Of a stretch of DNA of 7,047 nucleotides, positions 1,431 to 7,047 are shown in pieces. The notes beneath the pieces are model-generated. The model searched no databases, was not told the origin of the DNA, and worked only from the letters and a program-made list of their open reading frames with translations. The translations under genes and the position numbers were made by a program. The stretch comes from Candidatus Desantisbacteria bacterium CG1_02_38_46 (GTDB taxonomy: Bacteria; Desantisbacteria; UBA1551; UBA1559). The stretch lies in NCBI GenBank assembly GCA_001871015.1, contig MNUO01000101.1, positions 1 to 7,047 of the forward strand. Reading direction: 5' to 3'. Position 1 is the first letter of the stretch; each line of letters opens with the position of its first letter.

Positions 1431-2294
1431 ATGGAAATAAAAAAGATTATGGTTGTTGGCGCAGGGATAATGGGGCAGGGCATCAGCCTTGTTTTTGCTC
1501 GCAAAGGTCTTAGCGTTATTATTCAGGATATCGCGGATGAACAGGTTAAAAAAGGACTTCAGGATATAGAAAAAAATCTGGATAAAGAAATCAATAAGGG
1601 GGATATATCTTTAAAAGAAAAAGAACTAATCTTAAAAGGGATTACAGGAACTACAGAATTAAAAGAAGCAAAAAATGTGGATTTTGTGATTGAGGCGGTT
1701 ACAGAGGATATAAAAATAAAAAAAGAAATTTTCAGAAATTTAGATAAATTTTGTCCTCCAGATGTTATTTTTGCAAGCAATACTTCTTCTTTAAGTATTA
1801 CAGAAATTGCACAGGTGGTCAGCCGTAAGGATAAAGTGATAGGAATGCATTTTTTTAATCCCCCAACGAAGATGGAATTGATAGAAATTGTTTGTGGAAA
1901 AGATACTGCCAAGCAAACATTTCAGACGGTGAAAAGATTAAGTGAAATTTTAGGTAAAAAGATAGTAAAAGTAAAAGATTCCCCAGGTTTTATAGTGAAT
2001 AGATTACTTATCCAGATGATTAATGAATCTTGTTTTCTATTGCAGGATGGGGTAGCAAATCCAGAAGAGATTGACCTGGCAATGCAATTGGGGGCAAGAC
2101 ATCCTTTAGGACCACTCGGTTTAGCGGACCTCATTGGTTTAGATGTTTGTCTTTCTATTATGGAAACATTTTATCAGAAATTTCAAGATTCCAAATATAA
2201 GCCTTGTCCTTTACTAAAAGAAATGGTAGAAAAAGGAAAGAAAGGTAGAAAGACTGGAGAAGGGTTCTTTAAATATGGAACAGATTGTCGTTGA
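1431..2294 (+). CDS. hbd: 3-hydroxybutyryl-CoA dehydrogenase
   Basis: This cytosolic enzyme interconverts (S)-3-hydroxybutyryl-CoA and acetoacetyl-CoA with NAD(P), in butyrate-type fermentation, short-chain fatty acid oxidation or polyhydroxybutyrate-linked metabolism. The 287 residues are close to the family norm of about 282. The N-terminal Rossmann fold carries the dinucleotide motif VVGAGIMGQG (8-17, GxGxxG at G10, G12, G15). The active-site set expected from clostridial homologues is present: SNTSS (116-120, Ser119), GMHFFNPP (138-145, His140), Glu152 in IEIV, and Asn190 in PGFIVNRLL (185-193). The C-terminal helical domain includes HPLGPLGLADLIGLD (224-238) and ends in the family's KTGEGFF. 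The last few residues (KYGTDCR) run into the next gene, which starts 20 bp before this stop. The ATG has only a weak purine-rich region upstream. No thiolase, crotonase or acyl-CoA dehydrogenase gene is visible, so the pathway direction cannot be told. Codon use is AT-rich and Lys-rich. Confidence 0.93.
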   Translation: MEIKKIMVVGAGIMGQGISLVFARKGLSVIIQDIADEQVKKGLQDIEKNLDKEINKGDISLKEKELILKGITGTTELKEAKNVDFVIEAVTEDIKIKKEIFRNLDKFCPPDVIFASNTSSLSITEIAQVVSRKDKVIGMHFFNPPTKMELIEIVCGKDTAKQTFQTVKRLSEILGKKIVKVKDSPGFIVNRLLIQMINESCFLLQDGVANPEEIDLAMQLGARHPLGPLGLADLIGLDVCLSIMETFYQKFQDSKYKPCPLLKEMVEKGKKGRKTGEGFFKYGTDCR

Positions 2295-3243
2295 GACCTA
2301 CTTGGCTGAAGGGATTGTTGGGAAGAGTGCTGCAATCAAGAAGGTGATAGACCTCGCTAAAAAGGTTGCACCTACTGACAGTACCATCCTCATTTCAGGA
2401 GAGACAGGAGTTGGAAAAGAACTCATTGCCAGATACATACATCATTTGAGTCCCCGCCAGGATAAGTCTTTTGTTGCTTTGAATTGTGGAGCAATTCCAG
2501 AGACTTTATTAGAGAGCGAACTATTCGGGCATAAAAAGGGTGCTTTTACTGATGCAGTTGCTGATAAAAAAGGATTGTTTGAAGAGGCGAATGATGGGAC
2601 ATTTTTTCTGGATGAAGTTGGAGAACTTTCATCTTCCACTCAGGTGAAATTGTTGCGGGTTATTGAAAATCATGAAATTAGGCCAGTAGGAAGTACCGAG
2701 ATAAAAAAGGTGAATATCAGAATTATTGCTGCGACCAATAAGGACCTTGCTGAAGCAGTCAAAAATGGAAGATTTCGTGAGGATTTATTTTTCAGGATTA
2801 ATGTAATACAAATTCATATACCACCATTACGGGAAAGAAAGGAAGATGTGCCTTTATTGATAGCATATTTCCTGCGCCGGTATAACCAGCAATTCAAAAA
2901 AGAAGTGACAGATATTTCTGATGAGGCAATGACGATGCTGATGAACTACGACTATCCCGGCAATGTGAGGGAATTGGAAAATATTGTCCAGCATGCCATT
3001 GTTGTTGCTGAAGGCAGTATGATTTCAAAAAATGAACTTCCCTCTTTTGTTCCTGCAAGACAATCCCTGCCTGAACCAGTAGAGCCAATCTTTAAAACAA
3101 TGGAAGAAATGGAAAAAGACATCGTTCGTGAAACTCTTCTCAAATGTCATGGCAACCAGAGTCTTTCCGCAAAGAAGCTCGGCATAGGCCGCACAACCCT
3201 GATTCGCAAAATGAAGAAATACAATATAGGTGTCAGGTCTTGA
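2275..3243 (+). CDS. Single-domain sigma-54-dependent activator (AAA+ plus Fis-type HTH)
   Basis: This bacterial enhancer-binding protein would use ATP to open sigma-54 RNA polymerase complexes. Its 322 residues show Walker A GETGVGKE (42-49), the sigma-54 contact loop as GAFTDA (89-94) instead of GAFTGA, Walker B TFFLDE (109-114), sensor I ATN (153-155), the arginine-finger region RFREDLFFR (166-174) and sensor II GNVRELEN (229-236). A linker at about 255-280 leads to a C-terminal Fis-type HTH (about 283-318; LSAKKLGIGRTTLIRKMKKY). Only about 12 residues precede the AAA+ core, so there is no receiver, PAS or GAF domain; the architecture is that of PspF. The start ATG lies inside the end of hbd, which implies translational coupling; a GAGAAGGG stretch sits about 12 bases upstream of it. 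The last codons (GVRS-stop) lie inside a palindromic element, so the native C-terminus may have been altered. A sigma-54 promoter lies 221 bp downstream, before dnaK, which makes dnaK the obvious candidate target. Confidence 0.9.
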   Translation: MEQIVVETYLAEGIVGKSAAIKKVIDLAKKVAPTDSTILISGETGVGKELIARYIHHLSPRQDKSFVALNCGAIPETLLESELFGHKKGAFTDAVADKKGLFEEANDGTFFLDEVGELSSSTQVKLLRVIENHEIRPVGSTEIKKVNIRIIAATNKDLAEAVKNGRFREDLFFRINVIQIHIPPLRERKEDVPLLIAYFLRRYNQQFKKEVTDISDEAMTMLMNYDYPGNVRELENIVQHAIVVAEGSMISKNELPSFVPARQSLPEPVEPIFKTMEEMEKDIVRETLLKCHGNQSLSAKKLGIGRTTLIRKMKKYNIGVRS

Positions 3244-3289
3244 CAAATCAGGACTAAAGTCCTGAGTTACATGTCAAGACCTGACACCT
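3228..3289 (+). repeat. Nested palindromic element overlapping the activator's stop codon
   Basis: An 18-bp perfect inverted repeat (3228-3245 and 3272-3289; left arm AGGTGTCAGGTCTTGACA) encloses a second palindrome, TCAGGACT at 3248-3255 and AGTCCTGA at 3258-3265. The inner 27 bases (3246-3272) recur exactly at 3515-3541, just before dnaK. This looks like one interspersed repeat inserted into the loop of another. The left arm supplies the final codons and stop of the upstream gene. As RNA it would form a long, stable hairpin that could protect the 3' end of the hbd-activator transcript. There is no U-run after it, so I do not call it an intrinsic terminator. Confidence 0.8.
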
Positions 3290-3294
3290 GCTAA

Positions 3295-3329
3295 TCCATT
3301 CTGAAACACACTTATTGTTTCAAAATGGA
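3295..3329 (+). promoter_or_regulatory. Dyad, candidate enhancer site (UAS) for the sigma-54 activator
   Basis: Arms TCCATTCTGAAACA (3295-3308) and TGTTTCAAAATGGA (3316-3329) are complementary at 13 of 14 positions, the single mismatch being C3301 against A3323, around a 7-base centre. The centre at 3312 is 152 bp upstream of the -24 GG and about 177 bp upstream of the predicted start. That is within the usual range for enhancer sites of Fis-type HTH activators. No U-run follows, which argues against a terminator. The sequence between dyad and promoter is T-rich (for example 3388-3403) and might be bent; I see no convincing IHF consensus. Binding by the adjacent activator is inference. Confidence 0.5.
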
Positions 3330-3461
3330 ACATATAACCAAATTTGATACAAACTAAAGCCTGCATCCAACATTCCAAATTGTATAGTTTTTTTATTTTT
3401 CTTCAATAAAATACAGCATTTTTCTGCATTTCGCTACTTTTCGCATTCATTTTTTTCATAT

Positions 3462-3478
3462 TTGGCACGCTTATTGCA
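3462..3478 (+). promoter_or_regulatory. Sigma-54 (-24/-12) promoter upstream of dnaK
   Basis: The sequence TTGGCACGCTTATTGCA matches the sigma-54 consensus TGGCAC-N5-TTGCW in every defined position. The invariant GG is at 3464-3465 and GC at 3476-3477, with exactly 10 bases between them. The predicted transcription start is near 3489, giving a leader of about 71 nt before the dnaK ATG. No equally good match was noticed elsewhere in the window. The gene for a sigma-54 activator directly upstream strengthens the call. Confidence 0.82.
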
Positions 3479-3488
3479 TATTAATAAA

Positions 3489-3540
3489 TGTAGCGCAGGG
3501 CTTTAGCCCTGTCTAATCAGGACTAAAGTCCTGAGTTACA
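3489..3540 (+). repeat. Double-hairpin interspersed repeat forming the dnaK leader
   Basis: This 52-bp unit has outer arms TGTAGC/GTTACA (one G-U pair) around two hairpins: CAGGGCT/AGCCCTG (3496-3502 and 3505-3511) and TCAGGACT/AGTCCTGA (3517-3524 and 3527-3534). Such compact double-hairpin units are typical of REP-like elements, which in some bacteria are spread by RAYT transposases; no such transposase is visible here. The second hairpin and its flanks recur at 3246-3272. The element begins at the predicted sigma-54 start site and ends 19 bases before the dnaK ATG, so the transcript would begin with this structure. Confidence 0.75.
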
Positions 3541-3559
3541 TTGAAAAAAGAGGTGTAAA

Positions 3560-5485
3560 ATGGCGAAAATAATTGGAATTGATCTGGGAACGAGTAATTC
3601 AGCAGCGTCTGCAATGGAATTGGGAAAGCCCGTTATTATACCCAGCGCTGAAGGGACATCAATTGGCGGAAAGGCATTTCCTTCTTATGTTGCTTTTACC
3701 AAAGATGGGCAATTGTTAGTTGGAGAACCTGCACGCCGTCAGGCTGTTGCAAATCCAGAAGGTACTGTTATGAGTATTAAAAGGAAGATGGGGCAGGATA
3801 TAAAGGTGAAAGTTTATGATAAGGAATATACTCCACAGCAGATTTCATCCTTTATTTTGCAAAAGATTAAAAGAGATGCAGAGGCATTTATTGGAGAAAA
3901 AGTAGAAAAAGTCGTTATAACCTGTCCTGCTTATTTCAATGACAACCAGCGTCAGGCAACAAAGGATGCAGGTACGATTGCCGGTTTAAATGTGGTTCGC
4001 ATTATCAATGAGCCGACTGCAGCGTGCCTTGCTTATGGATTGGACAAGCTTGAGCAGGAACAGAAAGTTTTAGTTTTTGATTTCGGCGGAGGCACCCTGG
4101 ATGTTACAATTATGAATATGAACAAAGGGATGTTTGAAGTCCTTGCTACAAGCGGCGATACCCAGCTGGGTGGAACCGACATGGACAATATACTTACAGA
4201 CTACATTGTGGAAGAATTTAAAAAGGAAAGCGGTATTGATTTAAAGAAAGATAAGATGGCTATCCAGCGAGTTCGTGAAGCTAGTGAAAAAGCAAAAATC
4301 GAACTATCCACCACACTTTCCACTGATATCAATCTTCCTTTTATTACAGGTGACCCACAGACAGGTCCAAAACATCTCGCTATAACTTTAAGGAGGGCAA
4401 AACTCGAAGAACTTGTAATGCACATTATTGAAAAATGCCGCGGACCAATGGAGCAGGCAATCTCTGATTCCAAGTTGAGCCCTGACAAGATTACTAAAAT
4501 TATCCTTGTGGGAGGCCCTACGAGAATGCCTGTTGTGCAGAAATTTCTTGAGGATTATGCAGGCAAAAAGGTTGAAAGGGGTGTTGACCCAATGGAATGC
4601 GTTGCAACGGGCGCTGCTATTCAGGGAGCGATTATCGGCGGCGATTTAAAGGACAAAGATTTACTGCTTTTAGACGTTACTCCTCTTTCACTTGGGGTTG
4701 AAACTCTGGGTAGTGTATTTACTAAACTTATTGAAAGAAACACTACCATACCTACACGCAAGAGTCAGATTTTTACTACTGCCGCAGATAACCAGCCCGC
4801 AGTTGACATTCATGTTCTTCAGGGTGAAAGGGCGATGGCTCAAGACAACACAGAACTGGGTAGATTCGACCTTGTAGGAATTCCTCCTGCTCCACGCGGA
4901 ATGCCTCAGATAGAGGTGACCTTTGACATTGATGCAGACGGCATTATGCATGTTTCAGCAAAAGACCTCGGTACAGGAAAAGAACAGAGTATCAGAATTA
5001 CCGCACCCACAAAATTAAACAAGGAAGAAATTGACAAAATGGTAAAACAGTCTGAGCAATTTTCTGCTGAAGATGCAAAACGCCGAGAAGAAGTGGAAAT
5101 TCGCAATCAGGCTGATACGCTTGTCTACACAGCTGAAAAATCTCTGAAGGAACATGGAGATAAAGTAAACAAGGATGAAAGAGCGAAAATAGAAACTGCT
5201 ATAAATGAAGCTAAAGAATCACTCAAAGGTAAGGATGTAGATAAGATTAAAAAGGCGATGGAGAATCTGTCAAATGCGAGTTATAAACTTTCTGAGGTAA
5301 TATATAAAGAGGCGCAGGCAAAGAGGCAGGCGACACCTGGACCAGGCACTCCTCCGACAGGAGAGGGTACCCCTCCGACAGGAGAGGGTGGCGCACAACC
5401 TGGACCCCAGCAGGAACAAAAAGAACAGCCATCAGAAAAGGGTGGTGCAGTTGATGCTGAATTCCGTCGTGACGACAATAAATAA
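3560..5485 (+). CDS. dnaK: Chaperone DnaK (Hsp70)
   Basis: DnaK is a cytosolic ATP-driven chaperone that binds exposed hydrophobic peptides and normally works with DnaJ and GrpE, neither of which is in this window. The 641 residues include the phosphate loops DLGTSNS (8-14) and DFGGGTLD (174-181), GDTQLGG (199-205) with Thr201 matching the E. coli autophosphorylated Thr, the adenosine motif LVGGPTRMP (316-324), the linker [13 protein letters not shown] (367-379), a beta substrate domain to about 485 and a helical lid to about 590. The ATPase domain is the short type, lacking the roughly 25-residue E. coli insertion between IKRKMG (73-78) and TPQQIS. Ser12 replaces the usual bacterial Thr, and Cys123 sits in VITCPAYF. 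The tail (590-641) is Pro/Gly/Glu/Gln-rich with a duplicated TPPTGEG and ends [10 protein letters not shown] rather than the acidic EEV-type end. The ATG follows an AGAGGTG ribosome-binding site by 4 bases. A sigma-54 promoter at 3462-3478 probably drives it. Confidence 0.97.
5348..5389 (+). repeat. 21-bp tandem duplication in the dnaK tail
   Basis: Units 5348-5368 and 5369-5389 differ at one base, a silent third-position change (ACT to ACC). Each encodes TPPTGEG (residues 597-603 and 604-610) in the disordered linker before the C-terminal tail. Such in-frame units change in number by slippage or unequal recombination without harming the folded domains. Confidence 0.85.
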
Positions 5486-5489
5486 GAAC

Positions 5490-5525
5490 CCCCGTCAATA
5501 ATTAGTGGCGGGGAACCTTGTTTTT
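5490..5525 (+). terminator. Probable Rho-independent terminator after dnaK
   Basis: CCCCGTC (5490-5496) pairs with GGCGGGG (5507-5513), a 7-bp stem with one G-U pair and a 10-base loop. A U-rich stretch TTGTTTTT (5518-5525) follows after four bases. The stem begins 4 bases past the dnaK stop. The gap before the U-run and the largish loop make it imperfect, so partial read-through into groES is possible. Confidence 0.55.
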
Positions 5526-5580: not shown

Positions 5581-5868
5581 ATGCAGTTAGTGCCATTAGG
5601 GGATAGAGTTATTGTGAAACCACTTGAGGAAGAGGGAAAGACCAAGGGCGGAATTGTGCTGCCCGACACCGCAAAAGAAAAACCTCAAGAGGGAGAAGTA
5701 ATTGCAGTTGGAGATGGAAAGTTACTGGACAACGGGCAAAAGGTTGCACTTCAGGTTAAAAAAGGAGATAAGGTTCTTTATGGAAAATACAGTGGGACCG
5801 AAGTAAAAATTGATGGCGTTGAGCACCTCATTGTGAGGGAAGAAGATATTCTCGCCATCATCAAGTGA
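5581..5868 (+). CDS. groES: Co-chaperonin GroES (Hsp10)
   Basis: GroES forms the seven-subunit lid that closes the GroEL folding chamber in the cytosol. The 95 residues are a full-length family member: the N-terminal strand [16 protein letters not shown] (3-18), the mobile loop that docks on GroEL (about 16-35, with GGIVLPD at 23-29), GEVIAVGDG (38-46), [18 protein letters not shown] (62-79), and the closing strand [12 protein letters not shown] seen here as [13 protein letters not shown]. The ATG is preceded by a strong ribosome-binding site, AAGGAGGTGG, about 6 bases away. groEL follows after 120 bp, longer than usual because a palindromic repeat occupies most of the gap. Confidence 0.97.
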
Positions 5869-5878
5869 CGGCAGTACC

Positions 5879-5952
5879 GTCATTGCGAGTCCCGATGTAA
5901 CATCGGGGCGTGGCAATCCAGAACGAGATTGCTTCACGGCGTTCGCAATGAC
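5879..5952 (+). repeat. Palindromic interspersed element between groES and groEL
   Basis: Outer arms GTCATTGCGA (5879-5888) and TCGCAATGAC (5943-5952) are exact reverse complements. Inside are two more hairpins: CCCGATG/CATCGGG (5891-5897 and 5901-5907, loop of 3) and GCAATC/GATTGC (5913-5918 and 5927-5932, loop of 8). The RNA would fold as a three-way, cloverleaf-like junction. The GTCATTGCGAG...GCAATGAC signature resembles a palindromic repeat that I know from many unrelated bacterial genomes; this is recall and was not searched. It begins 11 bases after the groES stop and ends 36 bases before the groEL ATG, leaving groEL's ribosome-binding site intact. Confidence 0.8.
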
Positions 5953-5973
5953 ATTTTGCGTATTATAATATGA

Positions 5974-7047
<1,074 letters not shown>

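Follow-up and report, generated by a model that had tools for sequence, protein, structure and literature searches.

Transcription of dnaK in bacteria is usually ascribed to sigma-32, HrcA/CIRCE, HspR and similar systems. Promoters of the sigma-54 type need an ATP-driven activator to fire, and a dnaK gene placed behind one would therefore be tightly off without its activator. For groESL3 of Bradyrhizobium japonicum, this activator is NifA. Several chaperone genes have been linked to sigma-54: groESL3 is RpoN-dependent (PMC4842269), sigma-54 promoters have been reported for ibpB of Escherichia coli (PMC4370416) and for the hrcA-grpE-dnaK operon of Chlamydia (PMC8762339), and sigma-54 control of GroEL, GroES, GrpE, DnaJ and DnaK has been predicted in Bacteroidota and Planctomycetota (PMC12316311). 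Given these four reports, the notion that chaperone genes are not under sigma-54 control was dropped. In Myxococcus xanthus, HsfB-HsfA/lonD represents an NtrC-type heat-shock regulator (PMC9109919). Here we describe a 7,047-nucleotide stretch of Candidatus Desantisbacteria bacterium CG1_02_38_46 (contig MNUO01000101.1, hereafter the window), in which a sigma-54 activator gene, paired upstream sites and a -24/-12 promoter precede dnaK. These parts likely amount to a self-contained sigma-54 module that controls dnaK and possibly also groES-groEL.

The genes hcd, activator, dnaK, groES and groEL all lie on the + strand. An earlier note on this DNA had proposed a link running from the activator through a dyad and a -24/-12 promoter to dnaK; all four parts were recovered at their positions, including the activator gene adjoining dnaK upstream, whereas groES and groEL, 3' of dnaK, had been omitted from that account. 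The activator, a bacterial enhancer-binding protein (bEBP), matches Sigma54_activat (PF00158, 5.7e-72) with the Walker A motif GETGVGKE, followed by AAA_lid_14 and a C-terminal Fis-type DNA-binding domain (HTH_8, PF02954, 2.2e-13). Pfam detected no receiver, GAF or PAS domain N-terminal of the AAA+ domain, which only 13 residues precede, and the open frame at its full extent has 337 codons. In this respect the protein resembles PspF, which likewise combines AAA+ and Fis-type helix-turn-helix domains without an N-terminal regulatory domain; in both systems the activator gene adjoins its target operon, tandem sites lie upstream, and the target is of a stress type. The two differ in that the target here is dnaK-groESL rather than pspA, no PspA-like partner is seen, and the L1 loop reads GAFTDA rather than GAFTGA. 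Furthermore, the PspF gene is divergent from its target, whereas the present gene is co-directional with dnaK. The sequence is also nearer to ZraR and NtrC1 than to PspF: the closest solved structures are ZraR, NtrC1 and NifA, with PspF lower (3e-56).

The promoter TTGGCACGCTTATTGCA agrees with the consensus YTGGCACGNNNNTTGCW at all specified bases (GG at 3464-3465, GC at 3476-3477), as the earlier note had claimed. To gauge its rarity, the strict pattern TGGCACN5TTGCW was counted genome-wide, with the backward pattern as control, in the window's own genome (G000; a metagenome-assembled genome, MAG, of 1.73 Mb in 133 contigs, 88% complete, with the window as contig C6) and in one other genome of the same phylum (G001; same order, different family; 2.5 Mb). 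Six matches were found in the former and one in the latter, with none for the backward control in either, and the single G001 copy precedes dnaK. Contig C33 of G001 carries a truncated activator gene, dnaK, groES and groEL in the same order as the window, with a DnaK ortholog of 80% identity and a partial activator ortholog before dnaK of 76% identity across 152 residues; the contig stops inside the activator gene, so that any linkage to hcd falls beyond it. All 11 specified bases of the -24/-12 element are kept in G001, as are 16 of the 17 bases of upstream site 2, whereas the DNA between site 2 and the promoter is only 53% identical (gapped alignment).

Upstream of the promoter, the dyad proposed earlier stands as to its coordinates and arms (3295-3308 and 3316-3329; 14 nt each, 13/14 complementary, with a loop of 7 nt), but two neighbouring palindromes of 17 bp, each of the form TGTTTCA-N3-TGAAACA, describe it better, because the pair appears as a direct repeat in G001 and as an inverted repeat in the window, as is expected of two symmetric sites with differently decayed halves. 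The pair reads TAATCCATTCTGAAACA, 7 bp, TGTTTCAAAATGGAACA in the window and TGTATCAAGATGGAACA, 7 bp, TGTTTCAAAACGGAACA in G001; the start-to-start pitch is 24 bp in both, and the gap to the -24/-12 element is 130 bp in the window versus 128 bp in G001. When the site pattern was searched without mismatch, the only hit in the window's genome was site 2, and the only hits in G001 were the two sites upstream of dnaK. Loss of the promoter and dyad from a relative that keeps both genes, which would have spoken against the proposed link, was looked for in G001 and not seen. On the strength of the whole-genome counts and the conservation in G001, a chance match for the promoter and sites was rejected.

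A survey of dnaK upstream DNA from relatives (one genome per family, about 80 families, 87 usable regions) extended the comparison. Each region was scored for the -24/-12 element (maximum 17) from 20 to 160 bp ahead of the start codon, with shuffles and the reverse strand as controls. Scores of at least 15 were obtained in 11 of the 87 regions (shuffles 0.00, reverse strand 0), and scores of at least 14.5 in 15 regions against 0.17 expected; sigma-54 promoters at dnaK thus recur widely. In a palindrome scan made independently of the promoter score, sites with at least 12 of 14 arm bases were present in four of the 87 regions, where 0.19 sites were expected: those of the window, G001 and two genomes from outside the phylum, G025 and G064. 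All four also rank among the top sigma-54 promoter scorers. In the activator tree, the proteins of the window and G001 form a group (78/86) with the top homologs from G025 and G064, within a six-row clade that includes Fibrobacter (96/83); after G001, the nearest relatives of the window's activator are those of G025 and G064. The recognition helix of the latter two, LGISRSTLWRKMKEY, is close to the window's LGIGRTTLIRKMKKY. Because G025 and G064 have both the palindrome and close activator relatives, and because the palindrome and the activator clade were identified by separate routes, the link from activator through site and promoter to dnaK gains support from this co-occurrence as well as from the conservation in G001. 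Unlike the window copy, the activator relatives from outside the phylum have receiver domains (Response_reg, 4e-12 to 5e-8). Inspection by eye of the genes next to the activators of G025 and G064 revealed no histidine kinase. It is conceivable, although we lean slightly against it, that the window's lineage, the two survey genomes and probably Fibrobacter share a cross-phylum system built from a dedicated activator clade, the TGTTTCA-N3-TGAAACA enhancer and a -24/-12 promoter at dnaK. Such a system would be the main control of dnaK, replacing HrcA/CIRCE or sigma-32, and in the window's lineage the activator, without a receiver, would have become linked to dnaK.

When 80 activator loci were inspected together with up to 6 kb of flanking DNA, only one had dnaK near the activator. 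On this Bacteroidota contig (L104, 6001-8450), dnaK lies about 1.5 kb downstream of the activator, and TTGGCACAATCATTGAC, a near-promoter, stands 32 bp ahead of the dnaK start. This locus was not counted as a further case of a linked activator, because its activator belongs to another clade. Separately, strong sigma-54 promoters were noted 36-121 bp before dnaK at nine loci whose families do not belong to the window's order (L209, L202, L242, L169, L179, L170, L238, L183 and L197), seven of which lack a TGTTTCA site. Several loci (L197, L234 and L170) have a TTGTGCCA-type palindrome instead, perhaps the site of another activator.

Compared with the systems described previously, what is new here is the dedicated, linked activator with its enhancer; sigma-54 promoters at chaperone genes had already been reported. 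The predictions for Bacteroidota and Planctomycetota likewise place sigma-54 promoters before core chaperone genes, including dnaK, but the available text names no activator or enhancer, to which the window adds an adjacent activator, two sites and an unrelated lineage (PMC12316311). In Chlamydia, too, a sigma-54 promoter drives the dnaK operon; however, that operon also uses HrcA/CIRCE and sigma-66, and its activator is the unlinked two-component AtoC, whereas the window's genome yielded no HrcA. groESL3 and ibpB are chaperone genes under sigma-54 as well, but they represent one chaperonin copy and a small heat-shock protein rather than a single dnaK, and their activators serve other pathways. 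HsfB-HsfA shares with the window an NtrC-type regulator of a heat-shock gene, but is a phosphorelay-controlled receiver protein whose target is lonD, not dnaK. A literature search, which left subscription papers mostly outside its reach, returned no description of a dedicated activator and enhancer linked to dnaK. The activator and its sites linked to dnaK, together with the recurrence of the site and the activator clade outside the phylum, turn scattered promoter predictions into a specific, testable circuit, and the TGTTTCA-N3-TGAAACA motif can be used to find the activator in cultured species.

From these parts we infer how the module may operate. Activator dimers would bind the two 17-bp palindromes, which precede the -24/-12 element by about 130 bp, oligomerise and loop the DNA to RNA polymerase-sigma-54 at the promoter; ATP hydrolysis would then remodel the polymerase, and transcription would start near 3489. 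Dimers on paired sites, looping and ATP-driven remodelling are general bEBP behaviour. By the usual spacing, the start is expected near 3488-3490, about 70 nt before dnaK. groESL might be reached by read-through from dnaK. Lacking a sensor domain, the activator would be governed by its own level, given the overlap with hcd, or by an inhibitor protein like that of PspF. DnaK or GroEL could be the inhibiting partner in a negative feedback, by analogy with other heat-shock feedback loops and because dnaK(-groESL) is the only evident target of the activator; this is the most economical guess, although we consider it rather unlikely. The earlier note spoke of a chaperone switch; in the sense of induction by stress, that word goes further than the data support.

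Several observations weigh against such a module. The L1 loop of the activator deviates from GAFTGA, albeit to a common variant: GAFTDA occurs in 14 of the 80 fetched activator homologs and is counted among the L1 variants expected to retain activity in a study of Desulfovibrio vulgaris (PMC4641369). The G001 activator is cut by the contig end and lacks its N-terminus, and a terminator-like hairpin at 5490-5513, between dnaK and groES, may keep transcription from reaching groESL. In the survey, a sigma-54 promoter at dnaK was found in 10 of 65 genomes with a detected rpoN versus 1 of 16 without (P = 0.31), and an association of the two was rejected as not significant. Finally, searches of the 88%-complete MAG with either RpoN Pfam domain or with the G001 RpoN protein returned no rpoN. 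The earlier note had named the absence of rpoN as grounds for refutation; formally this applies to the MAG, but it is probably explained by an assembly gap, and G001 has an intact rpoN (481 aa). There, the next gene after rpoN is a small one taken for a V-ATPase subunit, and the gene for V-ATPase subunit I comes after that (both named by eye). In the MAG, contig C1 breaks off within the ortholog of this subunit I gene, on exactly the side expected for rpoN, which is why rpoN probably lies in the gap. Moreover, the MAG encodes three sigma-54 activators in all, two besides the dnaK-linked one, which makes a gap much likelier than loss of rpoN.

One alternative retains a functional sigma-54 promoter and activator but no heat-shock switch: dnaK would be coupled to metabolism or growth via hcd, or would be constantly on. 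The 3' end of hcd and the start of the activator gene overlap by 20 bp, the two genes are probably co-transcribed, and the activator is without a sensor domain. Sigma-54 systems, moreover, often respond to nutrient signals. In B. japonicum, groESL3 is listed with the nif genes as RpoN-dependent (PMC4842269). Set against this are the HrcA results: PF01628 gave no match in G000 or G001, in a search that was positive in 7 of 14 control genomes, so that some other stress control of dnaK is to be expected. The best approximation before dnaK to the CIRCE element TTAGCACTC-N9-GAGTGCTAA reaches 10/18 in the window and 11/18 in G001, which is background level; with neither HrcA nor a CIRCE-like element in either genome, HrcA/CIRCE control of dnaK was rejected. 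On balance, uncoupling of the module from heat shock seems rather unlikely to us.

It is less probable still that the activator controls dnaK while the main promoter is an unrecognised one of the sigma-70 family, the -24/-12 element being minor or condition-specific. Tandem sigma-66 and sigma-54 promoters at the Chlamydia hrcA-grpE-dnaK operon provide a precedent (PMC8762339), promoter types unlike the E. coli consensus are possible in this lineage, and no search was aimed at other heat-shock sigma factors. However, a + strand scan yielded no usable sigma-70-like promoter before dnaK, its one match (3541-3570) overlapping the dnaK start, and the two sites and the -24/-12 element are distinguished by their conservation and genome-wide rarity. 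That the promoter and dyad are products of chance or relics left after loss of rpoN, as its absence from the MAG might suggest, is scarcely credible given their conservation in G001, the two further activators in the same assembly, the rpoN neighbour gene at a contig edge, and the presence of promoter and site ahead of dnaK in G025 and G064, which belong to other phyla.

The coordinates of the features are collected in Table 1.

Table 1. Genes and control elements of the window, with the basis for each assignment.
Feature	Position	Strand	Basis
3-Hydroxybutyryl-CoA dehydrogenase gene (hcd)	1431-2294	+	domain-family matches
Sigma-54 activator (bEBP) gene, 322 aa	2275-3243	+	Pfam/NCBIfam matches
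Activator domains: AAA+, residues 14-181; lid, 186-263; Fis-type HTH_8, 275-316	in 2275-3243	+	Pfam
L1 loop GAFTDA, residues 89-94, natural variant of GAFTGA	2539-2556	+	translation
HTH_8 DNA-binding domain, recognition helix LGIGRTTLIRKMKKY	3097-3222	+	Pfam match
Upstream site 1, TAATCCATTCTGAAACA, 11/14 arm bases of TGTTTCA-N3-TGAAACA	3292-3308	+	G001 counterpart
Upstream site 2, TGTTTCAAAATGGAACA, 13/14 arm bases of TGTTTCA-N3-TGAAACA	3316-3332	+	G001 conservation
Sigma-54 -24/-12 promoter TTGGCACGCTTATTGCA	3462-3478	+	pattern match, conserved in G001
Predicted 5' leader of dnaK, containing two units of dispersed palindromic repeats	3489-3559	+	sequence
Ribosome-binding site GAGGTG	3550-3555	+	sequence
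dnaK, 641 aa	3560-5485	+	TIGR02350, 877 bits, over cut-off
groES, 95 aa	5581-5868	+	PF00166
groEL, first 353 codons (window ends inside gene)	5989-7047	+	PF00118

Further members of the regulon were sought through both elements and rejected. Of the six strict -24/-12 matches in G000, one is that at dnaK, four sit in coding sequence and one is intergenic. As for the upstream site, its other near-matches in G000 (C3, C101 and C104) fall within coding sequence or on its margin. The intergenic match (G000:C116:8989-9004; L145, about 3990) has the full consensus and is near-identical to the dnaK promoter over about 25 bp. It stands behind an FtsK-like gene and a small helix-turn-helix gene (both named by eye), and the contig ends 300 bp past it, in repeats, before any target gene.

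On either side of the dnaK control region, at 3246-3272 and 3515-3541, stands a copy of a dispersed palindromic repeat, TCAGGACTAAAGTCCTGAGTTACAT, the second copy lying in the predicted leader just past the promoter; the same repeat also occurs at L145 4021-4280, 3' of the perfect -24/-12 element at G000:C116:8989. Rfam matched no RNA element in the dnaK leader, and the palindromic repeats of the leader are absent from the dnaK upstream region of G001. An 18-bp perfect inverted repeat, AGGTGTCAGGTCTTGACA (3228-3245 and 3272-3289), encloses one TCAGGACTAAAGTCCTGAGTTACAT copy and encodes the last codons of the activator, whose C-terminal residues differ from those of G001 for this reason. At the other end of hcd, an open reading frame with a TTG start (245-1318) has as its sole match a RecG-C-terminal-like HATPase_c_4 domain (PF13749) and is probably a truncated or broken remnant of a larger regulator. 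The gap between groES and groEL (5868-5960) holds a long imperfect palindrome, GTCATTGCGAG...CGCAATGAC, recognised by eye as a dispersed repeat, and different repeats occupy the same place in G001.

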